Shown here: in pieces, positions 16,902-60,018 of the stretch
Numbering within the stretch: position 1 is the stretch's first letter
How the letters are laid out: each line of letters starts with the position of its first letter
Made by a program: the position numbers and the translations under genes
The notes under the pieces: model-generated
Database searches by the model: none
Told to the model about the DNA's origin: nothing
Seen by the model: only the letters and a program-made list of their open reading frames with translations
Assembly (NCBI RefSeq): GCF_947495965.1
Contig: NZ_CANMBB010000001.1
Span: forward strand, 957,728-1,021,727
Direction: 5' to 3'
From: an uncultured Maribacter sp.
GTDB lineage: Bacteria; Bacteroidota; Bacteroidia; Flavobacteriales; Flavobacteriaceae
DNA length: 64,000 bases

Positions 16902-16919
16902 ACAAACCCTGTAGTTTGT
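16902..16919. promoter_or_regulatory. candidate TetR operator 1 (ACAAAC-N6-GTTTGT)
   Basis: ACAAACCCTGTAGTTTGT has perfect 6-base inverted arms around six bases. It is identical at 15 of 18 positions to the site upstream of the TetR gene (26497-26514). The size and symmetry suit a TetR dimer. It could alternatively fold as an RNA hairpin, but no transcript is expected to cross it. Confidence 0.6.
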
Positions 16920-17026: not shown

Positions 17027-17044
17027 ACAAACTAACTAGTCTTT
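17027..17044. promoter_or_regulatory. candidate TetR operator 2 (degenerate)
   Basis: ACAAACTAACTAGTCTTT keeps the left arm ACAAAC and matches the regulator-gene site at 14 of 18 positions, with a weaker right arm. It lies 113 bases before the first gene of the operon, so it may be a secondary binding site. Confidence 0.4.
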
Positions 17045-17156: not shown

Positions 17157-17852
17157 ATGACATTTACAAGTTCAAAACAAACTGCCATTGTTTTTTTTGC
17201 GCAATCTTCTATAGAAGAAGTAAAGCACAAAAAAATAGCTAACGGTATTTCTTTGTTTTCGGCTTTAACAAAAAAGACATTAGACACTATTTCTAAGTCT
17301 AAGCTTCCATTTTTTCATTTTACAGAACAAGAACAAGTAGGAAATACTTTTGGAGAGCGTTTTACCAATGCAATATCATCGGTCTACAATTTAGGATATG
17401 AAAATGTTATTACAATTGGTAACGACACGCCGCAATTAACAACAAGCCAATTACTTAGAGCGGCTAAAGAAATTTCTGAAAATAAAACTATTTTAGGGCT
17501 GTCTGCAGATGGTGGTTTTTACCTTATGGGTTTATCTAAAAGTCAGTTTAACGCTAGCTTTTTTAAAAATTTATCGTGGCAAACAAATTCCTTACAAAAG
17601 GAAGTTTTTTCTTGGGCAAATGCATCTAAAATTACCATCTATAAGCTAAAAACATTTAAAGATATTGATGTCGAAAAAGATGTTTTTACAATAACTTCTT
17701 TATACAGCTTAAGAAATTCTAGTTTTTATATTCTACTACTTCAATTTGTTCAAGAAGCCAAAAACATATTCTACTATTTACAAAATATAGTTATTTCATC
17801 TACCAAAAGAATCTTCTACAATAAAGGATCCCCTTCCTTACAATTGCAATAA
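17157..17852 (+). CDS. DUF2064 / TIGR04282-type glycosyltransferase, arsenosugar-associated
   Basis: This 231-residue protein has a nucleotide-sugar transferase-like fold: TAIVFFAQSS strand, GERFTNAISSVYNLGYENVITIGNDTPQL with the D-x-P signature, and SADGGFYLMGL, the diagnostic DGGFYL(I/M)GL of DUF2064. TIGR04282 proteins are encoded with radical SAM ArsS enzymes and are annotated as arsenosugar biosynthesis transferases. Here an ArsS-like gene is in the same operon. The tail after about residue 185 is hydrophobic and basic, beyond the usual end of the domain. Its substrate is inferred, not shown. Confidence 0.85.
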   Translation: MTFTSSKQTAIVFFAQSSIEEVKHKKIANGISLFSALTKKTLDTISKSKLPFFHFTEQEQVGNTFGERFTNAISSVYNLGYENVITIGNDTPQLTTSQLLRAAKEISENKTILGLSADGGFYLMGLSKSQFNASFFKNLSWQTNSLQKEVFSWANASKITIYKLKTFKDIDVEKDVFTITSLYSLRNSSFYILLLQFVQEAKNIFYYLQNIVISSTKRIFYNKGSPSLQLQ

Positions 17853-17871
17853 ACTTTTATATAAATAACTA

Positions 17872-17893
17872 TGTAGGTTCATTAAACCCTACA
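17872..17893 (+). other. short hairpin before the SusC gene
   Basis: TGTAGG and CCTACA arms flank a short loop in the 65-base gap between the transferase and the SusC gene. It lacks a T-run, so it is more likely an mRNA processing or translation-tuning structure than a terminator. Confidence 0.35.
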
Positions 17894-17917
17894 AATAATC
17901 ATTTTTTATACCTATTA

Positions 17918-20900
17918 ATGAAGTATACAATGCTTTTATTTGTCCTATTTGCTAGTGCATTAGGCCATTCACAACAAACCATATCCGGAACTATTACAAC
18001 TATTTTTGGAGACCCAATTTCTAATGTAAATATTACATTAGTAGGAACCTCAAAAGGAACTGCCTCAGATACAAATGGTGCTTATACCTTAGATGTTCCT
18101 AATTTTCAAGGCGCATTACAATTCTCTGCCCTAGGGTATACAACACAAGTAATACCAATACACTATAATAAAACCGTAAATGCTGTTTTAGAAGAATCTT
18201 CAGAACAGTTAGATGAAGTAGTTTTAACTGCTTTAGGCTTTAAAAGAGAAACTAAAGAACTAGGCTATGCTGTACAAAGTATAAATGCCAAAGGAGTAAC
18301 CGAAGTAAAATCTGCCAACTTCCTAGATAATTTAAGCGGAAAGCTGGCTGGCGTAACTATTAACCAAGGTGCAACAGGAGTTGGTTCTTCTTCTAAAATA
18401 ACTATTAGAGGAGAAGCCTCCTTCTCTAATAACAATCCACTTTTTGTGGTAGATGGTGTTCCTATTAACAATAACTCTGTTTTTAATTTTACCAATGAAG
18501 CCGCTGCAGGTTTTCAGGAAATAGATTTTGGTAACGGTGCCATGGAGGTAAATCCAGATGATATTGAAGAAGTATCTGTTTTAAAAGGTCCTAGTGCTGC
18601 TGCATTATACGGAACACGAGCGTCTAATGGAGTTATTTTAATACAGACCAAAAACGGCTCTAAAAACAAAGGTTTAGGTATTAGTTACAATACCAGTTTC
18701 TTTGTAGATTCTGCTTTTCGTTTACCAGATTTTCAAAATGAATATGGTCAAGGTAATTCTGGACAATTTGCCTATATAGATGGCCTTGGTGGAGGTACTA
18801 ATGATAATATAACCTATAGTTGGGGGCCAAGATTAAATGCAGGCAACCTAGTGCCTCAATTTGATAGTCCTGTGACTCTTGCAAATGGTACGGTAGTACG
18901 TGGTGGTGATACTGCTCTTTACAGTGGTTTGCCAATAACTGCAACTCCGTTTAACGCTAACCCAGACAATCTTAAAGATTTTTATGAAACAGGAACTACA
19001 GCCATAAATAACTTAGCAATAGCTTCTAATTTTGATAAGGGAAATCTAAGACTTTCTTTTACCGATTTACGAAGCAAGTCTATTATTCCAGGAGTTAATT
19101 TAGATCGCCAAACCATAGCCGCACGTTTAGGATTTAAGCCCACAGAAAAACTACATATAAATTCTTCTATAAGCTATGTAAATTCACAGAGTGATAATAG
19201 GCCTTCTAGTGGTTATGGTTCCGAGAATGTAAATTATTCTTTAGTAGCGTGGGGACCTCGTTCTTTAAATATTAATAATCTAAAAAATTATTGGCAACCT
19301 GGCTTAGAAGGCACACAACAATATTCTTTTAATTATACCTTTTTTGATAATCCATACTTTATCTTAAATGAAAACACCAATTCTTTTAATAGAGATAGAG
19401 TTTTTGGTAACCTTTCTGCCAAGTATGATGTTACCAATAATTTAAGTGCTACCATACGCACAGGAATGGATTATTCTAGCGAGTTAAGACAACTTAAACG
19501 TGCGTATAGCTCTAACAGGTTTAGCAATGGTGCGTATGCAGAGCATGATGTTTTTTTTAGAGAAATAAATACCGATTTTCTTCTAAATTATAAAAACAAA
19601 TTTGGTGATTTTAAAGTCGATATTTCTTTAGGTGCAAATAGAATGAACCAAAGAGCAGTAACGAACCAATCACAAACCACAAGTTTAGCACAACCAGGAA
19701 TTTTTAAACTATCTAATGCAGCATCACCAATTGAAGTATTTGAATTTGCATCGGAAAAAAGAATTAACAGCTTCTATGGTTTAGCCAAATTCGGATATAA
19801 GAACTTTCTATTTTTAGATATTACTGGAAGAAACGATTGGTCTAGCGCACTAGCAACACCGTTTTCTGTAGATAATACGTCTTTCTTTTACCCTTCTGTT
19901 TCTACAAGTTTTATAATTTCTGAGGTAGTAGATTTACCGCAAGAAATTTCTTTTGCAAAATTAAGAGCTAGTTGGGCACAAGTTGGTAATGATACAAATC
20001 CGTACCAAACTACAGGTGCTTTTGTAGCACAAACACCATTTAACGGACAGCCCACTTTTAGTGACCAAAATACCATTGCAAACGCAAACCTTAAACCAGA
20101 GCAAACCTCCTCTTTTGAGGTAGGAGCAGATATTCGCTTTTTTAAAGACCGCTTAAACTTTGATGTTTCCTATTACAATGCCGTTACTAAAGACCAAATT
20201 ATTTCTTTACCTATTGGTATCTCTTCTGGTTTTACCCAACAAGTAGTTAACGGAGGAAAAGTACGCTCTAAAGGGGTTGAAATTATTCTTAATGCTACTC
20301 CTGTTCTTACTACAGATTTTAGCTGGAACACCACCTTTAATTTTAGTAGAAACAGAGCTACTGTAGAGAGCTTGCCACAAGATGGTGGCTTATTAACATT
20401 GGCCTACTCTAGAATATACGACAGTCAAAACCAAACGGTATTTTTACAAGCAGAAGAAGGTGGTCGTATTGGAGATTTATATGGTACTGGATATTTAAAA
20501 AATGAAAATGGCGACTTTATACTAACGGATGAAGGCCGTTATATTCCAGATAATAATCTACAAAAATTAGGAAATTACAATCCAGATTTTATGCTTGGTT
20601 TTAATAATCAATTAAATTATAAAAAATGGGATTTAGGCTTTTTGTTAGATTGGAGACAAGGCGGTATTATAGTTTCTAGAACACGCGCCTTAGGTAATGT
20701 TGGTGGTCAATTAGCAGAAACGGCTTTTAGACCAGAAGAAGGTATTGTTCCTCAAGGTGTTGTTAATGTTGGTACAATAGATACTCCAATATATGAACCT
20801 AATACCACAGCCGTAACTGCAGAGAGTTATTACCGCCAATTTTATGACCGTAACCATGAAGAAAACAATACCTATGATGCTTCTTTTTTAAAACTTCGTC

Positions 20901-21121
20901 AGGTTTCTCTAGGCTATACTTTTGATAAATTAAAAGTTTTTAAAAATGACGCTACTCTACGTGTTTCTTTCATAGGAAAAAATTTATTTGCAATAACAGA
21001 GAATCCACACTTTGACCCCGAGCAATTAGCTGTTCAAGGGCAAGGATTTATTAGCGGTATAGAAGACATGTCGTACGCTACTACTAGAAGCTTTGGAATA
21101 AAAGCAGGATTTAATTTTTAA
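17918..21121 (+). CDS. SusC/RagA-type TonB-dependent outer membrane transporter
   Basis: This 1067-residue protein has a signal peptide (MKYTMLLFVLFASALGHSQ), a carboxypeptidase-like regulatory domain (about 20-95), then DEVVLTALG, a TonB plug with LSGKLAGVTINQ and VDGVPIN, and a 22-strand barrel ending in an aromatic residue (GFNF). SusC proteins import ligands too large for porins, using energy from TonB, with a SusD lid. The SusD gene follows after 9 bases. Placement inside an ArsS operon, not with glycoside hydrolases, suggests a ligand other than an ordinary polysaccharide. The ligand is unknown. Confidence 0.95.
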   Translation: MKYTMLLFVLFASALGHSQQTISGTITTIFGDPISNVNITLVGTSKGTASDTNGAYTLDVPNFQGALQFSALGYTTQVIPIHYNKTVNAVLEESSEQLDEVVLTALGFKRETKELGYAVQSINAKGVTEVKSANFLDNLSGKLAGVTINQGATGVGSSSKITIRGEASFSNNNPLFVVDGVPINNNSVFNFTNEAAAGFQEIDFGNGAMEVNPDDIEEVSVLKGPSAAALYGTRASNGVILIQTKNGSKNKGLGISYNTSFFVDSAFRLPDFQNEYGQGNSGQFAYIDGLGGGTNDNITYSWGPRLNAGNLVPQFDSPVTLANGTVVRGGDTALYSGLPITATPFNANPDNLKDFYETGTTAINNLAIASNFDKGNLRLSFTDLRSKSIIPGVNLDRQTIAARLGFKPTEKLHINSSISYVNSQSDNRPSSGYGSENVNYSLVAWGPRSLNINNLKNYWQPGLEGTQQYSFNYTFFDNPYFILNENTNSFNRDRVFGNLSAKYDVTNNLSATIRTGMDYSSELRQLKRAYSSNRFSNGAYAEHDVFFREINTDFLLNYKNKFGDFKVDISLGANRMNQRAVTNQSQTTSLAQPGIFKLSNAASPIEVFEFASEKRINSFYGLAKFGYKNFLFLDITGRNDWSSALATPFSVDNTSFFYPSVSTSFIISEVVDLPQEISFAKLRASWAQVGNDTNPYQTTGAFVAQTPFNGQPTFSDQNTIANANLKPEQTSSFEVGADIRFFKDRLNFDVSYYNAVTKDQIISLPIGISSGFTQQVVNGGKVRSKGVEIILNATPVLTTDFSWNTTFNFSRNRATVESLPQDGGLLTLAYSRIYDSQNQTVFLQAEEGGRIGDLYGTGYLKNENGDFILTDEGRYIPDNNLQKLGNYNPDFMLGFNNQLNYKKWDLGFLLDWRQGGIIVSRTRALGNVGGQLAETAFRPEEGIVPQGVVNVGTIDTPIYEPNTTAVTAESYYRQFYDRNHEENNTYDASFLKLRQVSLGYTFDKLKVFKNDATLRVSFIGKNLFAITENPHFDPEQLAVQGQGFISGIEDMSYATTRSFGIKAGFNF

Positions 21122-21130
21122 GATACTATA

Positions 21131-22579
21131 ATGATATATAAAAAATATACAATACTAATAACACTTTGCATTATTGCAACAGTATTTTCTTGTACCAAAG
21201 ACTTTAAAGAAATAAATACGAATCCTAATGCTCCTGTTAGCGTACAACCAAGTTTACTTTTAAGACAAGTAATTTATGATTATGGAGAGCAAATGTCTTA
21301 TGAAGGTTTTACTGCAGGAAACTTATTGGGGCAGTATACTACAGCATTAGATTTTAATCTTTTTGACCGCCATGATTTAAAATCACCACAACTTGGTGGT
21401 AATCCTTGGCCAATATTATATACTAATCTTAGAGATAACGAACAAATACTAACGCTTGCTTTAGAAAATGAAACTTTTGCTGTTTATGAAGGACCTTCCA
21501 GAATACTAAAAGCATATATGGCTGGTGCACTTACCGATATTTTTGGTGATGTTCCCTATTCCGAAGCTTTTAAAGGGAAAGACATTACGGTAACACCGGC
21601 TTATGATACACAAGAATCTATTTACTTAGAAGAAGGTGGTATACTAGATAATTTAGAAAAAGGAATTACTGCAATAGAAAACTATAACGGTTCTATAACC
21701 TTAGAAGGCGATATTCTTTTTAATGGCGATTTAGATGCATGGGTTCGTTTTGCTAAATCGTTACAATTAAAATTTTTAATGCGTATTTCGGATAAAGAAA
21801 ATGTAGCAGCACAAATACAAGCTTTATATACCGACAACAAGTTTATTGCAAACAATTCTCAAAATGCAAAATTTGATTTTACAGACGGAGAACCAAACAA
21901 TTTTAGACTAGCAAGATTACGTGTTGGCGATTTTAACAACTTTGTTTTATCAGAAACAATGGACGACATATTAACCAATTTAAACGACCCTAGGCTTGCT
22001 ACATTATTTAGACCTTTTAGTAATAGTACTACAGGAGAATACAACGGTTTACTAAATGGTATAGATGCCTCACAAACCTCCATTGCATTAGCAGATTATT
22101 CTTTAACAGGAACTATTTTTAGAGAGAACCCTGGAGTTTTAGATGCTAATTTTATGACTAGTTGGGAAACCAAATTTTTACTTGCAGAGGCCGCAGAAAA
22201 ATTACTTATTTCTGCTGATGCACAGATATTATATGAACAAGCAGTAGAAGAATCTTTTGCGTATTGGGGTACAACATTACCAACAAATTACCTTACTACT
22301 GTTGCAGCATATGGGCAAAACGGGCAAAATCCTATGGAACAAATTATTACCCAAAAATGGATTTCTAATATGATAAATGGTTATGAAGGGTGGATAGAAT
22401 ATAGAAGAACAGGCTACCCACAACTTAAAACTATCTCGGCAAGCTTAAACAACAATATGCTTCCTGTTCGTATGCCCTACCCAGCTGAGGAAGAAGCCTT
22501 AAATAATAGCAATTATACAGAAGCCTCTACTAACACAGATGGTAATAGCATAAATGTAAAAGTATGGTGGGATGAGTAA
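21131..22579 (+). CDS. SusD/RagB-type surface lipoprotein
   Basis: This 482-residue protein has a lipoprotein signal with Cys about residue 21 (IIATVFSCTKDF). It then has the DFKEINTNPNAP start common to SusD-like_2 proteins, TPR-like helices and a C-terminal RRTGYPQL segment followed by RMPYP, which is conserved in the family. SusD lipoproteins cap the SusC barrel and capture ligand at the cell surface. It is 9 bases after SusC, so this is a genuine pair. No sugar-degrading enzyme accompanies it. Confidence 0.95.
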   Translation: MIYKKYTILITLCIIATVFSCTKDFKEINTNPNAPVSVQPSLLLRQVIYDYGEQMSYEGFTAGNLLGQYTTALDFNLFDRHDLKSPQLGGNPWPILYTNLRDNEQILTLALENETFAVYEGPSRILKAYMAGALTDIFGDVPYSEAFKGKDITVTPAYDTQESIYLEEGGILDNLEKGITAIENYNGSITLEGDILFNGDLDAWVRFAKSLQLKFLMRISDKENVAAQIQALYTDNKFIANNSQNAKFDFTDGEPNNFRLARLRVGDFNNFVLSETMDDILTNLNDPRLATLFRPFSNSTTGEYNGLLNGIDASQTSIALADYSLTGTIFRENPGVLDANFMTSWETKFLLAEAAEKLLISADAQILYEQAVEESFAYWGTTLPTNYLTTVAAYGQNGQNPMEQIITQKWISNMINGYEGWIEYRRTGYPQLKTISASLNNNMLPVRMPYPAEEEALNNSNYTEASTNTDGNSINVKVWWDE

Positions 22580-22638
22580 TAATCCTTCTAACTACCAAAA
22601 AAGGACATTGTTACTATTACGGTAGAAAATAAAAATAT

Positions 22639-24018
22639 ATGAAGTACAATGGTATTATAACGCTAATAGAATCCTCCCCTTTAGGGATAGAGGGGATTCA
22701 ATGGGCATTAGTAATAACATCTAGTTTGGTGTTGTTTTTCTTGTCTCCATTAGCAAAAAATACCAATCAGTTTTTTATGGCTAAGCATCGTAAAAAAGCC
22801 CCCAATGCCTTTATGTTAATGGGTAGTTTGGTAATCTCTTGGATATTTGCAAAGAGTATTACCAATGCCGCTAATTTAGGTTTAGCTTTTGGTTTAGTTG
22901 GTGGTGTTGCCTATGCAGCGTATTATGTATCCTTTGCAGTTGCTGGTATTGTTATTTATAAAATGAGAACCAAAGGAAATTATACAAGCATTCATCAGTT
23001 TTTAACTACTAAATATGGTAAAAGTGCCGTTGCAGTTTTCTCTATATTAATAGCTTTTCGTTTGTTTAATGAAGTTTGGAGCAACACCATGGTAATTGGC
23101 TCATACTTTGGTGCTATAGGCACTAGTGGTTATTATTGGTCTATTTTAGTTTTTACTGCGCTTACTTTATCCTATGTATTAAAAGGTGGAATGAGTAGCT
23201 CCATTTTCACAGATGTAATTCAGATGGGGTTATTTTCTGTATTAATACTAGTTATTCTTGGAGCTATATTTAATGCTGATGCTTCTTTTACAGCCTCTAA
23301 AGTAATATCTTCTGGAACTTGGTCTTTTGAAATGGGTTTAAATTTACTCTTTGCAGCTTTACTACAGTCATTAAGTTATCCTTTTCATGATCCTGTTCTT
23401 ACAGATAGAGGGTTTATTAGTAGTCCTAAAGTAACTTTAAAAAGCTTTTTATGGGCAACTCTTATAGGGGCAATATGTATTATTTTATTTAGCATAATTG
23501 GGGTTTATGCCCAGTATTCAGAGCTTAAAGGACAAGCTGCAGTAGAAGTAGGTAAAGCTTTTGGTGTAGTTATTTTACTTGTAATTAATTTTATAATGAT
23601 AACCTCAGCAGCTTCAACATTAGATTCTACCTTTTCTTCATTTTCTAAACTCCTATCTATAGATTTAAATCTTGGAAATACTTTAAAATTTGGAAGAGGC
23701 TCTATGGTAGCTATTGCTGTTCTAGGCACTATACCAGTTTTTCTTGATGCAGAAATACTTTCTGCAACTACCATAAGCGGTACTATGGTCATAGGCCTTA
23801 CCCCTGTATTTATATTTTGGCATAAAAAAGCAGCAGCACTTAGTTTTCATTTAAGTGTTTTTGCTGGAATTATTTTTGGTTTTTTATTGATTTTTAAAAT
23901 ATTTCCACAGCAATTAATTTTTACTACTGGTAAATATGCAGATTTACTTTGGATTAATTTCTGGGGTATTCTTAGTTGTGTAACCTTATACTTTATTCCC
24001 ACATGGATAAAAAAATAA
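22639..24018 (+). CDS. sodium/solute symporter (SSS family)
   Basis: This 459-residue inner membrane protein has about 13 transmembrane helices. It contains NQFFMAKHRKKAPN near the N-terminus and LKGGMSSSIFTDVIQM, the SSS signature region, then ITSAASTLDSTFSS containing the conserved Ser/Thr residues that bind Na+. SSS carriers move sugars, nucleosides, amino acids or anions with Na+. Being directly after SusC/SusD, it probably completes uptake of the same ligand across the inner membrane. The substrate cannot be read from sequence. Confidence 0.9.
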   Translation: MKYNGIITLIESSPLGIEGIQWALVITSSLVLFFLSPLAKNTNQFFMAKHRKKAPNAFMLMGSLVISWIFAKSITNAANLGLAFGLVGGVAYAAYYVSFAVAGIVIYKMRTKGNYTSIHQFLTTKYGKSAVAVFSILIAFRLFNEVWSNTMVIGSYFGAIGTSGYYWSILVFTALTLSYVLKGGMSSSIFTDVIQMGLFSVLILVILGAIFNADASFTASKVISSGTWSFEMGLNLLFAALLQSLSYPFHDPVLTDRGFISSPKVTLKSFLWATLIGAICIILFSIIGVYAQYSELKGQAAVEVGKAFGVVILLVINFIMITSAASTLDSTFSSFSKLLSIDLNLGNTLKFGRGSMVAIAVLGTIPVFLDAEILSATTISGTMVIGLTPVFIFWHKKAAALSFHLSVFAGIIFGFLLIFKIFPQQLIFTTGKYADLLWINFWGILSCVTLYFIPTWIKK

Positions 24019-24866
24019 TACATCTTGGAGAGCGTAAAGGCAAAATGCTAATTTTTGGTGGTGTTTATAGCAACCTACAGGCATTACAAGCCTTAAAAGA
24101 GGTGTCTAAAGAAGAAGGTATTGCTCCTGAAAATTGTATTTGCACAGGAGATATTATTGGTTATTGTGCACAGCCCGAAGAAACAATAAAACTATTTAAA
24201 GAGTGGAAAGCATTAAGCATTTTAGGTAATGTAGAATTACAATTAGTTGAAGGAGCAGAAGATTGTGGTTGTGATTTTACACAAGGGAGTAGGTGCGACA
24301 ATTTTTCTAAATTATGGTACCCGTATGCACAAAGTAAATTATCTAAAGAATCTTTAAATTGGATGGCTACTTTACCACACCATATTTCTTTTACATACGG
24401 CTCTAAAAAAGTTAGCGTTGTGCATGGTTCTTATTCTAATATATCTGAATTTATATTTGAATCTACACCAGACCAAATAAAAGAAGAAAGCTTAAAAAAC
24501 TTAAATTCTGATATTATTCTTGCAGGGCATTGCGGTCTACCTTTTCATTCTACCATAAATGAAAGATTATGGCTAAACCCCGGTGTAATAGGCATGCCTG
24601 CTAATGATGGTACTTCTAGAGTTTGGTATATGATTCTAGAAAACATAGAAGGCAGCATAAATTATACTCATAGGTATTTAAATTATAATTACGAACAGGC
24701 TTCTTCCCTAATGGAAGAGAATAATTTACCAATAGAATATACTAAAACCTTAGTTTCTGGTATATGGGATAACATGGAAATATTACCCGAAATAGAAAAG
24801 AAATTACAAGGAATACCTTATGATTTTGAAACATATATAAAAGAATATCAAACTATAAAAAAATAA
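24003..24866 (+). CDS. metallophosphoesterase-fold protein with altered metal site
   Basis: This protein of about 287 residues follows the YfcE/MJ0936-like calcineurin fold: MLIFGGVYSNLQAL, CTGDIIGYCAQPEE, LGNVE, VVHGSYSN and LAGHCGLPF in order. The first motif should be D-x-H but reads G-V-Y; GNHD is GNVE and GHTH is GHCG. Part of the dinuclear metal site is therefore missing, so it may bind ligand or use a changed mechanism. The ATG at 24003 is preferred over an in-frame ATG at 23976 lying inside the symporter gene; 24045 is a further option. It is translationally coupled to its neighbours. Confidence 0.85.
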   Translation: MDKKIIHLGERKGKMLIFGGVYSNLQALQALKEVSKEEGIAPENCICTGDIIGYCAQPEETIKLFKEWKALSILGNVELQLVEGAEDCGCDFTQGSRCDNFSKLWYPYAQSKLSKESLNWMATLPHHISFTYGSKKVSVVHGSYSNISEFIFESTPDQIKEESLKNLNSDIILAGHCGLPFHSTINERLWLNPGVIGMPANDGTSRVWYMILENIEGSINYTHRYLNYNYEQASSLMEENNLPIEYTKTLVSGIWDNMEILPEIEKKLQGIPYDFETYIKEYQTIKK

Positions 24867-24868
24867 AC

Positions 24869-25204
24869 ATGGCAGATTCTTATTACGACCCAAAAGATTT
24901 AAGAAAATTTGGAAAAATAACTGAATGGAGTGAAAATTTAGGAACAAAATTCTTTGACTATTATGGCGAGGTTTTTAAAGAAGGAGCTTTAACTGCTCGC
25001 GAAAAATCTTTAATTGCATTGGCTGTAGCCCACACAGAAAAATGTCCTTATTGTATAGATGCGTATACAAAAGATGGTTTGCAAAAAGGAATTACTAAAG
25101 AAGAAATGATGGAAGCCGTTCATGTAGGTGCTGCCATAAAAAGTGGTGCTGCCCTAGTGCATGGTGTACAAATGATGAATAAGCACGATAAATTATCTAT
25201 GTAA
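24869..25204 (+). CDS. CMD/AhpD-like protein, arsenosugar operon-associated
   Basis: This 111-residue helical protein of the carboxymuconolactone decarboxylase superfamily carries AHTEKCPYCIDAYTKDG, with the redox Cys59-x-x-Cys62 pair seen in AhpD. The C-terminal part, GAAIKSGAALVHGVQM, matches the family's second half. NCBI names a closely related family an arsenosugar biosynthesis-associated peroxidase-like protein. It starts 2 bases after the preceding gene. A thiol-dependent role towards arsenic or peroxide is inference. Confidence 0.9.
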   Translation: MADSYYDPKDLRKFGKITEWSENLGTKFFDYYGEVFKEGALTAREKSLIALAVAHTEKCPYCIDAYTKDGLQKGITKEEMMEAVHVGAAIKSGAALVHGVQMMNKHDKLSM

Positions 25205-25251
25205 CCTTCTAAGTATCTGAAGGAAAACTAAAAAATATTTTTATTAAAATG

Positions 25252-25292
25252 AAAGTAATACGTTAAATAGAGTACTAAGCATGTATTACTTT
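25252..25292 (+). other. 10-bp inverted repeat in the leader of the radical SAM gene
   Basis: AAAGTAATAC (25252-25261) and GTATTACTTT (25283-25292) form a perfect 10-bp stem with a 21-base loop containing AGTACT. It occupies the only long gap (103 bases) within the distal part of the operon, 15 bases before the ArsS-like start. It could set mRNA stability or translation, or be an operator for an internal promoter. Confidence 0.5.
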
Positions 25293-25307
25293 TACTAATT
25301 AGAAAAA

Positions 25308-26363
25308 ATGGCTACAAAATCATTACAAGCAAAGGGGGAAGACTTAGCAATAGCTAATAAACAACTAGAAATTTTAAATGGAGGTATTTTCGCAGATGGA
25401 GAGCTTCCTTATTTTAAGGATAATATTGCTAAAATTGGTCATTTTCCTTTACGTCCAAAAAAGTTAGAAATTCTTCAGATAAATGTTGGCTATATGTGTA
25501 ACCAAGTTTGTGAGCACTGTCATGTAGATGCTGGTCCCGATCGTAAGGAGATAATGACACGTGAAACCATGCAACAATGTTTAGAAGTAATTAAAAACAC
25601 TGGAGCGCATACACTAGATTTAACTGGAGGTGCTCCAGAAATGAACCCTGACTTTCGTTGGTTTGTAGAAGAAGCCGCAAAAGCTGGTATTAAAGATTTT
25701 ATTGTACGCTCTAACCTTACAATAATTAGAGCAAATAAAAAGTATTACGATTTACCAGACTTCTTTAAAAAACATAATGTACACGTTATATCTTCTATGC
25801 CACATTATACCCGTGGAAAAACAGATAAACAACGTGGCGATGGTGTTTTTGACAAGTCTATAAAAGCATTACAAGAATTAAACGAACGTGGCTATGGTAT
25901 GCCTGGTAGCGACTTACGATTAGATTTAGTTTACAATCCGTCTGGTGCATATTTACCAGGAGACCAAATGGCTTTACAGGCAGATTTTAAAAAAGCTCTT
26001 AAAGAAGATTTTAATATAGATTTTCATAATTTATTTGCAATTACTAACTTACCAATAGCGCGGTTTTTAGATTACCTAATAGCATCTGAAAATTATGAAG
26101 ACTATATGTATGCATTAGTAGAAGCTTATAACCCTTCTACTGTTGCAAATGTTATGTGTACCAATACTATTTCTATAAGTTGGGATGGTTGGCTATATGA
26201 TTGTGATTTTAACCAAATGTTAGATTTAAAGGTTGCAAGTAAGGTAAAGCATATTAAAGATTATAATGAAGATATATTAAATGATAGAAACATAATTATA
26301 TCACAACATTGTTATGGTTGTACCGCTGGTTCTGGTAGTAGCTGCCAAGGAACAGTTGCTTAA
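25308..26363 (+). CDS. arsS: ArsS-like radical SAM enzyme (arsenosugar biosynthesis)
   Basis: This 351-residue radical SAM protein coordinates its 4Fe-4S cluster through Cys64-x3-Cys68-x2-Cys71 (MCNQVCEHCHVDAGP), followed by LDLTGGAPEMNP, the GGE-like SAM-binding motif. The C-terminus QHCYGCTAGSGSSCQG (Cys335, 338, 346) matches the C-terminal domain of ArsS proteins; some relatives carry selenocysteine in this region. ArsS attaches the 5'-deoxyadenosyl group of SAM to dimethylated arsenic, the first step to arsenosugars. Neither an arsenic methyltransferase (ArsM) nor the second transferase is in this window. Confidence 0.9.
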   Translation: MATKSLQAKGEDLAIANKQLEILNGGIFADGELPYFKDNIAKIGHFPLRPKKLEILQINVGYMCNQVCEHCHVDAGPDRKEIMTRETMQQCLEVIKNTGAHTLDLTGGAPEMNPDFRWFVEEAAKAGIKDFIVRSNLTIIRANKKYYDLPDFFKKHNVHVISSMPHYTRGKTDKQRGDGVFDKSIKALQELNERGYGMPGSDLRLDLVYNPSGAYLPGDQMALQADFKKALKEDFNIDFHNLFAITNLPIARFLDYLIASENYEDYMYALVEAYNPSTVANVMCTNTISISWDGWLYDCDFNQMLDLKVASKVKHIKDYNEDILNDRNIIISQHCYGCTAGSGSSCQGTVA

Positions 26364-26368
26364 AAAAA

Positions 26369-26401
26369 ATTTTTCTGCGTAGTTCCCCCGGCAGGAAAAA
26401 T
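26369..26401 (+). repeat. CTGC/GCAGG hairpin after the radical SAM gene
   Basis: ATTTTTC-TGC and GCAGGAAAAAT pair with one bulge around a C-rich loop. It may add to termination. Its TCCTGC/GCAGGA core resembles the palindromes around the GIY-YIG gene at 750 and 1105, so it could be a remnant of the same repeat family. Confidence 0.4.
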
Positions 26402-26407
26402 GTTTGC

Positions 26408-26441
26408 AAAACCTCTATTAATTTAGGGGTTTTTGTATTTT
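26408..26441 (+). terminator. terminator of the arsenosugar-like operon
   Basis: AAAACCTCTA (26408-26417) pairs with TAGGGGTTTT (26424-26433), one T-G wobble, 6-base loop, followed by TGTATTTT. It ends the operon that starts at 17157. Confidence 0.75.
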
Positions 26442-26496
26442 AAATCCCTTTTAAAAATTAAAAAAGAACAGTTTATCTTATTTATACTACCGTTTA

Positions 26497-26514
26497 ACAA
26501 ACTAGGTAGTTTGT
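26497..26514. promoter_or_regulatory. candidate TetR self-operator (perfect 18-bp palindrome)
   Basis: ACAAACTAGGTAGTTTGT has 8-base perfect arms around GG. It lies upstream of the TetR gene and matches the sites at 16902 (15/18) and 17027 (14/18) upstream of the operon. This supports a single regulator controlling its own gene and the transport/radical SAM genes. Confidence 0.65.
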
Positions 26515-26664
26515 AATTATAGTGAAGAATATGGTAGTTCATCGAGCTTTTTACTTTTTAACGATTTTATACAACATTACATCTTTTAAAATACTAGTAA
26601 AACTAAGTTCGGCGGTTCTTTGTATAGAGACTTAACGGTCTGTTTAACCCAAAACCCAAATCTT

Positions 26665-27282
26665 ATGAGTAATAGTATAAAACGCATGGCTACCATGCAA
26701 AGAATGCAAGTAACAGGACTAGAGTTATTTTATAAAAAAGGATATTATAACACTAGTGTAGACGATATTTTAAAAGAACTTTCCCTTTCTAAAGGAGCTT
26801 TTTATTATCATTTTGATTCTAAAGAAGACTTTTTTGTTCAAATTATAGACAACCTTATTGTTCGTAGAGTATATAGTATGTTAATTGAACCTATAGAAGG
26901 CCATGATAACCCTTTAGACTTAATTACAAACTGTTTTGATAATGCATTAGAGACCGCTGTTCATAATGAAATGGACTTTGGTTTTATGTTAAGTAACTTA
27001 ATTGCGGAATTTAATGGTAAAAATGATACCATAATGAAACATTTAACCGATGTTTTAAAAATATGGGAAGTAAACCTAGTTACAACATTACAAAAAGGAA
27101 AATTTAATGGTTTTATAGATAGACACGTAGACTGTGAAGGCGTTGCCACCTATTTAATGAGCTCTTTTATTGGTATTAGAACACTCATGACCGATGTTGC
27201 TCCAAGTGCACGTAAATACAGGTTTATGGCGCAATTAAGGCAATATCTTAAAAGTATAGAATTAAAGCCAGAAAGCGTATAA
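26665..27282 (+). CDS. TetR/AcrR family transcriptional regulator
   Basis: This protein of about 205 residues has an N-terminal TetR helix-turn-helix: GLELFYKKGYYNTSVDDILKELSLSKGAFYYHFDSKEDFF is the full signature with the KGxFYYHFxSKE ending. The C-terminal ligand domain is helical. The ATG at 26665 fits family length; an in-frame ATG at 26620 would add 15 residues of non-family sequence. Its own promoter region has the ACAAAC palindrome, and matching sites precede the operon at 17157. The inducer may be an arsenic compound or the SusCD ligand, which is inference. Confidence 0.93.
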   Translation: MSNSIKRMATMQRMQVTGLELFYKKGYYNTSVDDILKELSLSKGAFYYHFDSKEDFFVQIIDNLIVRRVYSMLIEPIEGHDNPLDLITNCFDNALETAVHNEMDFGFMLSNLIAEFNGKNDTIMKHLTDVLKIWEVNLVTTLQKGKFNGFIDRHVDCEGVATYLMSSFIGIRTLMTDVAPSARKYRFMAQLRQYLKSIELKPESV

Positions 27283-32567: not shown

Positions 32568-33932
32568 CTAAATTCCTCTTGAGAATAATACAGTTGTAAC
32601 TGTTTTAAAAATTACTCGTAAATCTAAATTTATAGATTTATTTTTTATGTAATATAAATCATATTCTAATTTTTGGATAGAATCTTCTAAAGTTTCTCCA
32701 TACTTAAATTTAACTTGAGCCCATCCAGTAATTCCTGGCCTTATAAGATGTCTAATATTATAAAATGGCGTTATTTCATTTAATTTTTCAGTAAAAACTT
32801 TTCTTTCCGGCCTAGGGCCAATGAATTGCATATCTCCTTTAATTACTGAAATTATTTGAGGTAATTCGTCTATTCTAAATTTTCGCAATATTTTACCAAA
32901 TTCTGTTATTCTTGCATCATTTTTAGCTGCCATTTTAGCACCAAATTTCTCAGCATCAACAACCATAGATCTAAATTTATAAATATTAAATTCTCTTCCA
33001 AATTGTCCCACTCTTTTTTGAGTATAAAACAAAGGACCTTTATTAAAAAAAAGATTTAATATCCATACAAATGGCGCACAAAAAAGAAATATTGACCCCA
33101 CAAAAAGGGATAAAATAAAATTTATTAAAAAACTAAATACTTTATGAAGATACCTTATTCTTCTGTTCTGTAGTTGAAGAATTTCAAAAAAACTATCATT
33201 GTGTGATTTAATTGGAAGAGCCTCGTAAACATTTTCATAAAACGATGTGTATGAAATTGCTTCTTTTCCTTCTAATATTGAATGAAGAAGTCTGTTCTCT
33301 AACTTTTGAGGAAAATTACTATAGCCTTTGGTATTTATTATCCAAGTATCTATTTTATCTGTTGCAGTGAAAAATTTATTAGTAATTAAGTTATTTTCAT
33401 TTATACAATAGGAAAGTTTTACTTTATAAAAAGTTTCCATGTCAAAACCGTCAATAACTTCGACATCATTTTTTAAATCATTTTTAGACTTTTCTTCATA
33501 TATATAAAGAACATTTTTAGTAGTAGGAATTATTTTAAAAACATTTCTAAAAAAAAGCCTCCATAAAAAAATCTCTAAAGGTGTTAATAATAAAAAATAT
33601 AATAAGGGTTTCCTCCAAAAACTAACATCGAAAATTAATACTGAGAGAATAAAAACAATAAATACAAATAATACTGATATATATACTGATTGAGAAAATA
33701 GATATTTCCTTTTTGACACTTTTTCTAAATTATAAAAATCTAAAATATATGCTAAGGAAAAATAAGTAATAACACCAATTAAAAAAAGACTAATTTTAAG
33801 TTTTACTGAAATAAATTCTCTATCTATAGAATGATTTATTAACACATTTAATTTGGTCAGTACAACTATCAAATCTCCAACAAAAAGAATAAACTTCCTT
33901 TCTATAGAATTTAATATAGGTGTTTTAATCAT
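32568..33932 (-). CDS. polyprenyl glycosylphosphotransferase (initiating sugar transferase)
   Basis: This 454-residue protein has several N-terminal transmembrane helices (about 12-120), a soluble middle region and a C-terminal bacterial sugar transferase domain. The latter has YTQKRVGQFGREFNIYKFRSMVVDAE, FGKILRKFRIDELPQI and DMQFIGPRPERK. Such enzymes transfer a sugar 1-phosphate from UDP-sugar to undecaprenyl phosphate, the first committed step of repeat-unit assembly. Its presence defines the surrounding genes as a Wzx/Wzy-type polysaccharide locus. Confidence 0.93.
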   Translation of the reverse strand: MIKTPILNSIERKFILFVGDLIVVLTKLNVLINHSIDREFISVKLKISLFLIGVITYFSLAYILDFYNLEKVSKRKYLFSQSVYISVLFVFIVFILSVLIFDVSFWRKPLLYFLLLTPLEIFLWRLFFRNVFKIIPTTKNVLYIYEEKSKNDLKNDVEVIDGFDMETFYKVKLSYCINENNLITNKFFTATDKIDTWIINTKGYSNFPQKLENRLLHSILEGKEAISYTSFYENVYEALPIKSHNDSFFEILQLQNRRIRYLHKVFSFLINFILSLFVGSIFLFCAPFVWILNLFFNKGPLFYTQKRVGQFGREFNIYKFRSMVVDAEKFGAKMAAKNDARITEFGKILRKFRIDELPQIISVIKGDMQFIGPRPERKVFTEKLNEITPFYNIRHLIRPGITGWAQVKFKYGETLEDSIQKLEYDLYYIKNKSINLDLRVIFKTVTTVLFSRGI

Positions 33933-33975
33933 TATTGATAAATATTTAAGACAAGCGAAATAAAATGCAAAAATA

Positions 33976-35229
33976 CTAAACTTTAATTATCTCTTTTTTA
34001 TTTTGTGAATTCTCTAAAATTGCACAAAGTAATGTTATGATAAAAATATTATATGTTGCAATACCATAAGCCCTTTGTAAAAAACTTTCGGTACAAAAAA
34101 TAACTAATAAAAAAACAAAAATTGAGATTAAAAAAAAATTCTTTTTTCTATGTAAAAAACGCATGTTCCAAACTATAAAAATTAGAAAAGCTAATACCGA
34201 AAATATTCCAGCAGAAGCAAATAAAAATAAGTAGTGATTATGGGTGTTAAATTGGCGTCTTTGAAAAAGAGTGGTGTCAAAATTTTCCTTATAACATTCA
34301 TTTAAATAAAATTGTAAATCTCCTACACCTATACCTGTTAACCAATCTTCTTTGGTTATTAATAAAGTACAATAAAAAATACCTGTTCTTAAATTAGTAG
34401 ATGTAAGATTGTGAGAATCTGGCATTACTAGTCCTGAAGAATATATTCTTGTAAATCTCTTTTGAATAAAGTCATTACTATAAACCAAAGCAATTACTGC
34501 AAATAACATACCTCCTAAAAAAATAGTGTTTTTTCTTTTTTTTATACTAGTTACAAAGTATATAACTAAAGCTACTAAAAGAGCTATAATTCCTATCCTT
34601 GAAGTTAAAACTAAAATAACAGATACTAATAATATTACCGCTCCTAGTTTTATATAATCTATTTTATTAGATAGTTTATCAATAAGATATAATACCGCTA
34701 TTCCCATATATGCTGATACATATGTTGGGTGCAAATCAAGAACTTCTATTTTAGATAATACTTCTCTAAAAAACCTTGCAGAAAAACCAACCTTAGAGGT
34801 GTAGTAATATATAAAATTACTTATAAGAAATAAGCATAAAATTACATTTATAAACACAAAATAATTCCAAGTTTTATTTAATGTTTTTTTGTTTGGAATA
34901 ACTTTAGGAGAAAATATAAGACAAATTGGCGTTAGTAAAATGGGGCATTGTTTTATGATAAGGTCTACTCCTTCTTTCAGATTGGAAGTATAAAATAAAC
35001 TGAATATTAAAATCAAAAAAAAACCTGTAAATAAAATAAAAAGCTGAAAAGAATTATCACTTATTCTTTTTTTATCAAATTTTATAATTCCATATAAAAC
35101 GAATGCTGTAATTGACATTGTCACTAAAAAGAAAGGTAATATTGGAAATGAAAATATAAAGAAAAGTAAAAAAAGCTGAATGTTCTTTTCACATAAATAT
35201 TTTTCTTTAATAATTAAAAAAAAATTCAT
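33976..35229 (-). CDS. O-antigen ligase / polymerase family membrane protein (first of two)
   Basis: This 417-residue protein has about 11 transmembrane helices and a large periplasmic loop ending in RRQFNTHNHYLFLFASAG, which matches the (T/N)HN.YL segment of the Wzy_C/WaaL family. DWLTGIGVGDLQ precedes it, also typical. Members either polymerise repeat units or join glycan to lipid A. A second such protein is at 38583, so one may be the polymerase and the other the ligase. The start overlaps the upstream glycosyltransferase by 4 bases. Confidence 0.85.
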   Translation of the reverse strand: MNFFLIIKEKYLCEKNIQLFLLFFIFSFPILPFFLVTMSITAFVLYGIIKFDKKRISDNSFQLFILFTGFFLILIFSLFYTSNLKEGVDLIIKQCPILLTPICLIFSPKVIPNKKTLNKTWNYFVFINVILCLFLISNFIYYYTSKVGFSARFFREVLSKIEVLDLHPTYVSAYMGIAVLYLIDKLSNKIDYIKLGAVILLVSVILVLTSRIGIIALLVALVIYFVTSIKKRKNTIFLGGMLFAVIALVYSNDFIQKRFTRIYSSGLVMPDSHNLTSTNLRTGIFYCTLLITKEDWLTGIGVGDLQFYLNECYKENFDTTLFQRRQFNTHNHYLFLFASAGIFSVLAFLIFIVWNMRFLHRKKNFFLISIFVFLLVIFCTESFLQRAYGIATYNIFIITLLCAILENSQNKKEIIKV

Positions 35230-36341
35230 ATTTGTTGCATTCTATTTATGTACTTTGCAATAACAATTTTTTCATCAAATTCATTTAGAGCTTTTTCTCT
35301 ACTTTTATCTCCCATAACTTTTCGTTGGTAAGAATCTAGCTTTAAAAAACTTTTTATTGCTACTGCTAAACTATGTTCACTTTTAATTTCGCATAAAAAA
35401 CCATTTACTGTATCTTCTACAATTTCTTTACAACCAATATGATTTGTTGTAATAATAGGTTTTCCCATAGATATTGCCTCTATTAAACATCTAGGAATAC
35501 CTTCTCTATAATAAGAAGGGAGGACTATACAGTCCGTTTCTCTTATCTGCTGACGAACATCATCAGAAAATCCTAAATAGTTAATTAAGCCTTTTGCTTC
35601 CCAACTTTTTATTTTCTCTTCTGAAACTGCCTTCTTATCTTTAGAATCAAACTTCCCTAATAATTGAAATTCAACATTATTATATTCTTTCTTAACTATT
35701 TCTATGGCTTTTATGTACTCATTAATACCTTTATCCCATAATAGCCTTGTTATTACACAAAATACTATTTTACCATTCTCTTCTTTTAACTTAGGCATTG
35801 GACTAAAATATTGAGTATTTGCTCCAGAACCAGGAACATTTATTGCTACACTATCATTAACAATTCCATTTTTAATAAAAAGTTCCCTATCATCATTATT
35901 TTGAAAAAAAACAGTGTTAACTTTTCTAAAAGCATTTTTACACACAAAAATTAAAGTCTTTTTTAATAAGTTTTCACTTGAAAAACCTTGCCCTAATCCT
36001 GTTATATTAATTAAAATTGGACGATTTAATATTCTAGCAGAAATAGAAGAATATAAATTAGGTTTAATTGTATATGACAAAATAAAATTGGGGCTTATTT
36101 TTTTTATTTTTTTATAAAAAGTATAAAATCCTTTTAGTTCTGCAAATGGATTAAACCCTTTTGCGTCTATTTTCACATCAACAAAATTACATCCTAATTT
36201 TTTTAAATTCTTAACATATTTGTCATAAGGGGCTAAAACATAAATTTCATAACCCTTACTTCTCAATTCATTTATTAAACCCGTTCTATAATTATTAATG
36301 GACCAAGAGGTATTAGATATTAATAATACTTTTTTTGACAT
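35226..36341 (-). CDS. glycosyltransferase family 4 protein
   Basis: This 371-residue GT-B glycosyltransferase has the N-terminal acceptor domain VLLISNTSWSINNYRTGLINELRSKG, then the donor domain with FCVITRLLWDKGINEYIKAIE, LLGKFDSKDK, and PSYYREGIPRCLIEAISMGKPIITT with the E-x7-E motif of GT4. The N-terminal part resembles the WcaL/PglA-like enzymes that add N-acetylgalactosamine or related sugars, but donor and acceptor cannot be read. It is cytoplasmic or membrane-peripheral, within the repeat-unit assembly operon. Confidence 0.9.
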   Translation of the reverse strand: MSKKVLLISNTSWSINNYRTGLINELRSKGYEIYVLAPYDKYVKNLKKLGCNFVDVKIDAKGFNPFAELKGFYTFYKKIKKISPNFILSYTIKPNLYSSISARILNRPILINITGLGQGFSSENLLKKTLIFVCKNAFRKVNTVFFQNNDDRELFIKNGIVNDSVAINVPGSGANTQYFSPMPKLKEENGKIVFCVITRLLWDKGINEYIKAIEIVKKEYNNVEFQLLGKFDSKDKKAVSEEKIKSWEAKGLINYLGFSDDVRQQIRETDCIVLPSYYREGIPRCLIEAISMGKPIITTNHIGCKEIVEDTVNGFLCEIKSEHSLAVAIKSFLKLDSYQRKVMGDKSREKALNEFDEKIVIAKYINRMQQI

Positions 36342-36345
36342 TATA

Positions 36346-37500
36346 CTATTTTTGTGTTCGTATTATATTTTTCTCTTTAAGTATTTTGTTAACTTCTATT
36401 TCTCGAAGTTCAATTTTATTTTTTTCAGAATTATAGTGATTAAAGATTATTTTACTCCCATCAACATTAAAATATGGATGCGGATGTGCTGGATGGTTAA
36501 ATACCTTTACTGGACATACTCTATACAACTTATCTGCATTAATATCATAAATTAGTATCCAATTAGTTTTTTTAAACGTTTTCCTATAAGTATCTAAAAC
36601 TACAAGGTTTTTAAAATTAGACGCATGGCTAACGTAAAACTCATTTGTATAGAACAAAGGAACAAATTCCTTTAATTCTTCCTTATATTGTAATAACCCA
36701 CTCAAAATTTTTCTAGCAGGACTACCGTATTGAATTAGAAAAATATCATTCTCATCTTGTCCCATTTTATCAAAAAACTCATGCCCAACTTCTACATACT
36801 TATTAGATTGCCAAACATTAAATAAAGTGTCTTTTTCAATATTCCATTTCCAAACCCTGTCTTGCACCCAGGAACCTTCATGAGCAAACATTATAATATT
36901 AGAGTCCCATGGACAAATTTGAACATGATTTGCAGTTGGCTTTTCTGTACCTACAAAAGGAGATTTTTTTAATAACAATTCTTCACTTAATATATTTAAT
37001 CTAGCTAAGAAAGAAATTTTTCCAATACTCAAAGTAAAGGATAAAAAATCTCCCTCATTTGTGATATGCAAAGGTGCCCATAGTGTATATTTTTTTGGCA
37101 CCTCAAAAATACATTCCGCTTTCATTTTTTCAATTTGTGAAAAATCTACAACATAAATAGTATTGTTATTTGCAAAAAATAGCTTCTTAAGCTTATTATT
37201 TAATATTAATGTTAACCCAAAGTGATTAACATCTTTATAAATATCAATATTCTTAAAATCAGTAACTTTTATTTCCTTTTTATTATAAAAAAGATAAATG
37301 TTGGTATTCTTATTTTCTTCCTTACAAAAAAAAAAATTATCAGAATCTATATATAATGAATTAGTTTGGTAACCCCCATGAATGCTAGACTCTTCAGAAA
37401 AAAAATTTTTTATATTTATCTCATTTTCAATGACATTTTTTGTAGAAATTTTTTGACAAAAAATCAAATTTGAACAAAATAATAATAATATATATTTCAT
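36346..37500 (-). CDS. secreted beta-propeller resembling PL22 oligogalacturonate lyase
   Basis: This 384-residue protein has a signal peptide (MKYILLLFCSNLIFCQ). The rest is repeated beta-blade sequence. ANHVQICPWDSNIIMFAHEGSW, VGHEFFDKMG, SHASNFKN and HPAHPHPYFNVDGSKIIFN line up with the metal-binding His and propeller motifs I know from oligogalacturonate lyases (PL22). That family cleaves short uronate chains by beta-elimination. A periplasmic uronide lyase inside a polysaccharide synthesis locus would be unusual; it could trim, edit or only bind the product. It begins immediately after the neighbouring glycosyltransferase. Confidence 0.65.
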   Translation of the reverse strand: MKYILLLFCSNLIFCQKISTKNVIENEINIKNFFSEESSIHGGYQTNSLYIDSDNFFFCKEENKNTNIYLFYNKKEIKVTDFKNIDIYKDVNHFGLTLILNNKLKKLFFANNNTIYVVDFSQIEKMKAECIFEVPKKYTLWAPLHITNEGDFLSFTLSIGKISFLARLNILSEELLLKKSPFVGTEKPTANHVQICPWDSNIIMFAHEGSWVQDRVWKWNIEKDTLFNVWQSNKYVEVGHEFFDKMGQDENDIFLIQYGSPARKILSGLLQYKEELKEFVPLFYTNEFYVSHASNFKNLVVLDTYRKTFKKTNWILIYDINADKLYRVCPVKVFNHPAHPHPYFNVDGSKIIFNHYNSEKNKIELREIEVNKILKEKNIIRTQK

Positions 37501-40552: not shown

Positions 40553-40573
40553 ATAAACTATATACTTTAAGGA

Positions 40574-41149: not shown

Positions 41150-41160
41150 TAGTATTTAAA

Positions 41161-42414: not shown

Positions 42415-42423
42415 AAAAATGAA

Positions 42424-44752: not shown

Positions 44753-44757
44753 TGCTA

Positions 44758-45615: not shown

Positions 45616-45618
45616 TGT

Positions 45619-47691: not shown

Positions 47692-47692
47692 T

Positions 47693-49384: not shown

Positions 49385-49414
49385 ATCTATTTCACGTAAA
49401 ATTACAATTTAAAT

Positions 49415-50920: not shown

Positions 50921-50925
50921 AGGTT

Positions 50926-59067: not shown

Positions 59068-59071
59068 AAAA

Positions 59072-60007: not shown

Positions 60008-60018
60008 TTACCCAAGTC

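Follow-up and report, generated by a model that had tools for sequence, protein, structure and literature searches.

A SusC/SusD and Na+ symporter module with a cysteine-rich phosphoesterase-fold protein accompanies ArsS clusters of Bacteroidota: a candidate import route for ribosides, possibly arsenical

Introduction

Why would a SusC/SusD pair and a Na+/solute symporter lie in one operon with ArsS, a radical SAM enzyme of arsenosugar clusters? The question is raised by a 64,000-nucleotide stretch of DNA from an uncultured Maribacter sp. (contig NZ_CANMBB010000001.1 of assembly GCF_947495965.1, positions 957,728 to 1,021,727; the whole stretch is called the window here), which belongs to a genome (G000) of 3.9 Mb in 35 contigs. 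In the window, positions 17157-26363 of the plus strand form one co-directional operon of seven genes: GTa, SusC, SusD, the symporter (SSS), a metallophosphoesterase-like protein (MPE), a peroxidase-like protein (Prx) and ArsS. A sequence-only reading had proposed that the transport genes are coupled to the ArsS chemistry; the gene linkage and co-occurrence across genomes described below bear out the coupling itself, and the import role is carried forward here as a proposal.

Arsenosugars are the main organic arsenic of marine algae. In PMC12159101, the passage citing Cheng et al. 2021 on ArsS states that oxo-arsenosugar biosynthesis involves the adenosylation of arsenic by a radical SAM enzyme. 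The uptake of small organoarsenicals, arsenosugars included, is called largely unknown in a passage of PMC12608789 that concerns human and animal cells. The literature searched, with subscription papers outside it, gave no paper that links SusD, TonB or TonB-dependent uptake to arsenosugars, and the matches listed for arsenosugar and SusC held no transporter paper. The ArsS chemistry was thus already known, and what we report as new is an arsenosugar cluster equipped with transport genes of its own and with a converted phosphoesterase.

The genes of the operon are:

17157..17852, +: GTa, a divergent TIGR04282/DUF2064 paralogue with a C-terminal NKGSP tail (PF09837, 69.2 bits)
17918..21121, +: SusC, TonB-dependent outer-membrane channel (TIGR04056, 603 bits, cut-off 368.25)
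21131..22579, +: SusD-like lipoprotein (PF12771, SusD-like_2, 298 bits)
22639..24018, +: SSS, a divergent Na+/solute symporter of predicted SSS/SLC5 fold (weak TIGR00813 match)
24003..24866, +: MPE, calcineurin-like phosphoesterase fold with ligands lost and five invariant cysteines (PF12850, 37.1 bits)
24869..25204, +: Prx, arsenosugar biosynthesis-associated peroxidase-like protein with a CPYC motif, adjoining ArsS (TIGR04169, 194.2 bits, cut-off 120)
25308..26363, +: ArsS, radical SAM enzyme with a CNQVCEHC motif (TIGR04167, 439.6 bits, cut-off 300; DUF3641)

Results

The transport module recurs with ArsS

Our data show that the module is not peculiar to this genome. Whole-genome searches of 299 genomes of the family found orthologues of SusD, at 64% identity or more, in 37, the next relatives lying at 42% and below; orthologues of SSS, at 58% identity or more, were found in 41 of the 299, with nothing weaker at E 1e-60. 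ArsS scores over its cut-off in 215 of the 299 genomes, and it is present in all 37 SusD genomes and in 40 of the 41 SSS genomes. The module lies inside the ArsS cluster in 29 of these 40, which are all those with an ArsS position among the matches listed. When 20 loci of SusD orthologues were read (five of them in genomes already examined), SusC, SusD, SSS and MPE were contiguous and stood beside ArsS in every one.

A second view came from the side of ArsS. We read 100 ArsS neighborhoods of relatives, of about 20 kb each (8 kb for L110), chosen mostly in order of E-value with small contigs and low-quality genomes omitted by eye; the last eight (L134-L141), which include a genome of the same genus, were taken from lower in the ArsS ranking. 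SusC and SusD adjoin ArsS in eight of them (L097, L115, L124, L126, L127, L128, L129 and L134), with SSS seen in L126, L129 and L134; several of the eight stretches end just past SusD. A further three (L106, L138 and L141) hold SSS and MPE without SusCD.

A third view started from MPE. Scanning named genomes with an MPE alignment gave 567 stretches, 527 of which encode relatives, and the best 80 of the 527 were examined. All 80 hold SSS, 77 ArsS, 77 a GT gene, 76 SusD and 75 SusC, and in each of the 77 loci that have ArsS, all genes between ArsS and MPE, both included, run in the same direction. The three loci without it are L252, a contig of 3.5 kb, L271, where the contig starts within SusD, and L297, from a genome with ArsS at another place; in L281 the order SSS-MPE-Prx-ArsS stands without SusCD. 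The nearest of the named loci are Maribacter, and the genera represented are Maribacter, Cellulophaga, Flagellimonas, Polaribacter, Olleya, Lacinutrix, Psychroserpens, Algibacter, Winogradskyella and Flavobacterium, among others. Together with the 20 SusD loci, these counts dispose of the thought that the neighborhood might occur in this genome only.

The sampling was also widened to the phylum, where SSS is present in 9 of 395 genomes, the window's included, and ArsS in all nine, compared with 156 of the 395 overall. Five of these SSS genomes belong to other families, and SusD, SSS and MPE are contiguous in each; ArsS lies within a few kb in two of them, G472 and G483.

At least three layouts are found. 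In one, Prx-ArsS-GTa-SusC-SusD-SSS-MPE is followed by rhodanese, TIGR04282, PNP and further genes; the second, that of the window, is GTa-SusC-SusD-SSS-MPE-Prx-ArsS; the third is ArsS-SSS-MPE without SusCD. Chance adjacency of the genes is ruled out by this recurrence in many genomes and several layouts. On an ArsS tree, parsimony required 12 changes for the 24 SusCD rows of 116 and 15 when the three SSS-MPE rows were added, which is a rough guide without a control, since the tree is quick, its support is weak, with 64 of its 113 inner branches open, and module rows were enriched by sampling. Repeated gain or loss together with retained linkage argues for function and not for shared descent alone, and from recurrence and linkage we conclude that arsenosugar clusters have the transport module as an accessory.

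The common ArsS cluster and the rest of the pathway

Counting the window with the 100 neighborhoods, ArsS stands in all 101 loci, GT/DUF2064 in 95, Prx in 93, PNP in 73 and a 322-residue ArsM in 64, followed by rhodanese (56), DUF547 (47), GT2 (32) and a desaturase-like gene (32). PNP, ArsM (NF038099), rhodanese (NF045521) and GT2 (TIGR04283) were each named from one representative, that of ArsM scoring 575.7 bits against a cut-off of 400; DUF547 was named by Pfam on the copy on contig 4 of our genome, and "desaturase-like" is a label of our own.

All eight open reading frames that the sequence-only reading had picked out lie on the plus strand where it placed them. It had also taken ArsM to be absent, so that methylation would occur elsewhere or the substrate would arrive methylated. 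A methylation gene does lie elsewhere in the genome and ArsM is therefore not absent: contig 3 carries a general ArsM (NF008823, 311.7 bits against 263). For the arsenosugar-type ArsM the search of the genome gave no close match, the best hit to one NF038099 representative having 25% identity. Contig 4 holds together a rhodanese, a full TIGR04282 gene (208.8 bits against 134), PNP, DUF547 and GT2, where all but the TIGR04282 gene were assigned by BLAST and Pfam. With the remaining pathway genes on contig 4 and ArsM on contig 3, the operon in the window is one half of a split pathway. Beside the contig-4 genes lie two tandem open reading frames of 95 residues with identical translations (locus L312, 7110-7397 and 7481-7768). 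The general ArsM (locus L142, 350-2608) has a cysteine-rich C-terminus, and 5' of it are sigma-factor-like and deacetylase-like open reading frames, labels that we gave by reading.

Identity of GTa, SusC, SusD and SSS

Ten proteins encoded between 15001 and 27279 were scanned, and Pfam cut-offs were passed by SusD (PF12771), DUF2064, CMD, Metallophos_2 and TetR_N. None of the ten is a carbohydrate-active enzyme, so the missing glycoside hydrolase that the sequence-only reading had pointed out is borne out.

GTa had been labeled TIGR04282, of which the DUF2064 match stands; at 97.1 bits it is under the TIGR04282 cut-off of 134 and is better described as a divergent paralogue. Its NKGSP end is present in 74 of the 75 GT genes that lie directly 5' of SusC or SSS in the named loci. 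The C-terminal linker before the pentapeptide is variable, and NKGSP also occurs in 13 GT copies from ArsS loci without SusCD. That the tail could be a nucleic-acid element is ruled out, as its third codon positions vary freely.

SusC and SusD form a pair by the adjacency of their TIGR04056 and PF12771 matches and by the SusD lipobox cysteine, Cys21, which is invariant in 24 sequences. SSS is less conventional. Its sequence scores under the curated cut-offs (TIGR00813, 30.4 bits against 184; Pfam SSF PF00474, 17.7 against 22.8), and the symporter label of the earlier reading survives through the predicted fold: the AF2 model (pLDDT 78.9) has SGLT, DUR3, CHT1 and SiaT as its top PDB matches, at TM 0.65-0.75 on the query, in keeping with an SLC5/SSS protein. 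A choline-type ligand, suggested by a sequence match to CHT1 (E 1e-7), was dropped, as carriers of sugar and urea rank equally high in the fold search. With ATG 24003 chosen as the start of MPE, the SSS and MPE reading frames overlap by 16 bases, which suggests translational coupling.

MPE has lost catalytic residues and has invariant cysteines

MPE matches the family profile PF12850 at 37.1 bits against a cut-off of 27, and its AF2 model (pLDDT 88.7) is closest in the PDB to the asymmetric Ap4A hydrolase SapH (Spr1479; 3qfm_A, TM 0.74 on the query). The name "metallophosphoesterase-like" is thus right for profile and fold, and misleading for the catalytic motif, most of which is lost. MPE shares its fold with SapH and with the canonical phosphoesterase 3rqz, and differs from both in having GxY for DxH, GNV for GNH and GH[C/S]G for GHxH as well as conserved cysteines; in the alignment with 3rqz, GVY stands in place of DVH, GNVE in place of GNHD and GHCG in place of GHTH. 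We take DxH, GNH and GHxH to be the metal and catalytic motifs of the superfamily, and the canonical residues are visible in 3rqz.

These exchanges are general, the metal and catalytic motif residues being replaced in all 97 distinct MPE sequences. Among the 97, G18, Y20 and G176 never vary, and V occupies position 75 in 96 and I in one, while D48, N74, H139 and H174 are kept throughout. The residues that are kept presumably make up mostly one metal site, and those that are lost the other site and the catalytic histidine. Away from the replaced ligands, cysteines 43, 53, 86, 88 and 96 are invariant; position 45 is cysteine in 80 sequences, and position 175 is cysteine in 94 and serine in three. 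In the five MPE proteins from outside the family, position 175 is C, S or A, and the GYC, CGC and RC cysteines are kept, as is GGxYSN. A signal peptide was not seen in MPE.

MPE is also often fused to Prx. In 36 of the 80 named loci the two are fused in frame, in 42 Prx is separate, and in two it is absent from the locus; the fusion is found again in one of the five genomes outside the family (L316). Judged by its motifs, MPE is no normal phosphoesterase. We read it as a protein whose thiol-bearing site would accept a ligand of adenosyl or ribosyl type, and the gene context and the fusion to Prx with its CPYC motif suggest arsenic as part of what it binds.

Relatives of SusD point to a riboside

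Clues to the ligand come from the nearest SusD relatives, of 39-42% identity, which were read in four genomes, two of the loci (L329 and L330) on both sides. In both of these a TIGR04282 paralogue, under the cut-off, lies 5' of SusC. A PF01156 nucleoside hydrolase lies 3' of SusD in three of the four loci: L330 (102.6 bits against 34.2), L331 (108.8) and L332 (105.7). L330 has in addition an S-methyl-5-thioribose-kinase-like protein 3' of SusD (TIGR01767, 111.4 bits against 275) and a TIGR04283 gene 5' of GTa (235 against 182). L331 encodes an ABC transporter with a binding protein that passes the NF008633 cut-off; L329 has an ABC-type binding protein and permeases, with no hydrolase before the next operon. 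The NF008633 binding protein (label PRK11622), found 3' of SusD in two of the four loci, is what we take to be the YnjB type. The nucleoside hydrolase in three of the four loci points to a riboside ligand, and the nucleoside-like ligand once guessed for the window gains support from it. The pairs of L329-L332, with their ABC transporter and/or nucleoside hydrolase, are perhaps a wider family of riboside importers.

Discussion

A proposed import module

The module almost certainly belongs to the ArsS system. What it would do there can be proposed as follows. SusC and SusD would take a ligand across the outer membrane and the divergent Na+ symporter would take it across the inner one, the ligand being a 5-modified riboside or nucleoside, for which an arsenical such as an arsenosugar or an ArsS-type dimethylarsinoyl nucleoside is the likeliest candidate. 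Once taken up, the arsenical would be bound or reduced through thiols by MPE, working with Prx, and recycled by PNP and the TIGR04282- and TIGR04283-type enzymes within the pathway of the cell itself. Taken as a whole, the proposal that the operon is a two-membrane import module of a widespread subtype of the Bacteroidota ArsS cluster, with a riboside and likely arsenical ligand, has in our view about an even chance of being right. Of its parts, a riboside or nucleoside ligand is somewhat probable from the SusD relatives, with PNP in the common cluster and on contig 4 and the likeness of the MPE model to an Ap4A hydrolase also in its favor, and an arsenical ligand is possible, at rather less than an even chance. 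More tentative still is the full picture, in which organoarsenical ribosides are taken up and an Ap4A-hydrolase-fold protein, its metal site partly swapped for a thiol site, acts with Prx in an arsenosugar recycling loop. By such a dedicated route many marine Bacteroidota may import organoarsenicals or related ribosides.

Several observations weigh against this proposal. Most ArsS clusters lack the module (SusCD in 8 of 100, SSS-MPE alone in three more), so the synthesis of arsenosugars does not require it. Outside the family the linkage loosens: SSS and ArsS are on different contigs in three of the five genomes (G609, G659 and G371), ArsS is on the opposite strand to SSS in G483, one of the two in which they are linked, and C43 of MPE is not kept in the five proteins. 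Within the family, the SSS relative of genome G242 (58% identity; locus L313, 5244-6623) lies among phenylacetate genes (PaaA_PaaC PF05138 twice and a PaaE-like gene by BLAST); this is the only one of the 41 SSS genomes without ArsS, and neither SusD nor MPE was found in the 11.5 kb read there. Finally, three of the four genomes with related SusD (G001, G227 and G289) are not ArsS-positive, G225 being the one that is, so that an importer of this kind functions in the absence of ArsS and its cargo may be a riboside free of arsenic.

This last point leads to an explanation that we consider rather unlikely but worth stating, namely that the cargo is an ordinary nucleoside or riboside without arsenic, used as nutrient or precursor, and that the module stays beside ArsS through the 5'-deoxyadenosyl/ribose chemistry that both deal with. 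The nucleoside hydrolases of three related loci and the thioribose-kinase-like protein of one would fit it well, together with those ArsS-negative genomes. It accounts less easily for the ArsS-linked SusD, SSS and MPE being sharp orthologous groups that occur almost only in ArsS genomes, and for the MPE-Prx fusions, which tie the module to an ArsS partner. A different thought is that the "ArsS" cluster of this clade acts on a non-arsenic substrate which the module brings in. ArsS in 215 of 299 genomes is more than we would expect of a rare detoxification trait; against this stand the TIGR04167 equivalog match of 439.6 bits and the gene cluster of NF038099-type ArsM in 64 of 101 loci, and we regard the idea as unlikely.

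That the module instead brings in small arsenic species, arsenite or dimethylarsinate, as feedstock for ArsS has a direct logic of supply, and the conserved cysteines of MPE would suit it. SusCD pairs generally serve ligands too large for porins, and with ArsM in this genome and in those 64 loci the feedstock can be made inside the cell, which makes this reading very unlikely. Least probable of all, to the point of being hard to credit, is an ordinary glycan-type polysaccharide utilization locus adjoining arsS by accident: SusC/SusD pairs usually do serve glycans, but the ten scanned proteins hold no glycoside hydrolase and the linkage to ArsS extends across layouts and genera.

Relation to known systems

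The import module that we favor can be set beside several known arrangements. With the ArsM/ArsS clusters the pathway shares ArsS, Prx (TIGR04169), TIGR04282, TIGR04283, PNP, rhodanese (NF045521) and, in relatives, AsSugarArsM (NF038099); the window adds GTa, SusC, SusD, SSS and the cysteine-rich MPE to these, and this genome differs in splitting the pathway over two loci with ArsM separate. With SusCD polysaccharide utilization loci it shares a SusC/SusD pair followed by an inner-membrane transporter, whereas the pair here stands in an ArsS cluster with no glycoside hydrolase among the ten proteins scanned. The ribose/nucleoside utilization (rus) loci of Bacteroides combine SusCD with a nucleoside hydrolase and a sugar kinase and so resemble L330 and in part L331 and L332; unlike them, the module in the window has no nucleoside hydrolase and has MPE, Prx and ArsS. 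The ynjABCDEF operon of E. coli brings together an AhpD-like protein, an ABC transporter and a rhodanese, and a YnjB-type binding protein recurs in two of the four loci with related SusD; the operon is not known to include SusCD or ArsS.

A conserved uptake candidate that is open to genetics and joined to ArsS would make the question of arsenosugar uptake testable in cultured Maribacter, Polaribacter and Flavobacterium. If the proposal is true, heterotrophs would recycle arsenosugars, beyond making or degrading them, and MPE would clearly exemplify how a phosphoesterase fold can be remodeled with cysteines at its center.

Regulator and neighboring features

Three features lie 3' of the operon:

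26408..26433, +: terminator-like hairpin 3' of arsS (z -3.35 for 26360-26445)
26497..26514, strand not assigned: perfect palindrome ACAAACTA-GG-TAGTTTGT, a putative TetR operator 5' of tetR
26665..27282, +: TetR-family regulator (PF00440, TetR_N, over the Pfam cut-off)

For tetR the start ATG 26665 was chosen, where the list of open reading frames gives TTG 26620. The hairpin sits between arsS and tetR, which is probably its own transcription unit. The sequence-only reading had noted the regulator behind the operon; the gene is there, and a core role for it is ruled out, as TetR is found in 19 of the 101 loci, three with SusD and 18 with the same GT9-type neighbor, and stands behind the hairpin.

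The palindrome ACAAACTANNTAGTTTGT has copies with two mismatches 5' of GTa at 16902-16919 and 17027-17044. At two mismatches or fewer it has 15 sites in the genome, compared with one for the reversed control. Allowing up to three mismatches, it lies 5' of tetR in 16 of the 37 named TetR loci (reversed control 0) and 5' of GTa in only 7 of 35 named loci (control 1). It is a possible TetR operator.

Further along the window, positions 32568-51795 of the minus strand encode O-antigen-ligase-like, polysaccharide-flippase-like and DUF6909 proteins (three were scanned) and are probably an exopolysaccharide cluster. Positions 52450-62463 encode a large DUF11-repeat protein with a CHU_C type IX secretion domain; PorP/SprF and OmpA-domain proteins come after it.

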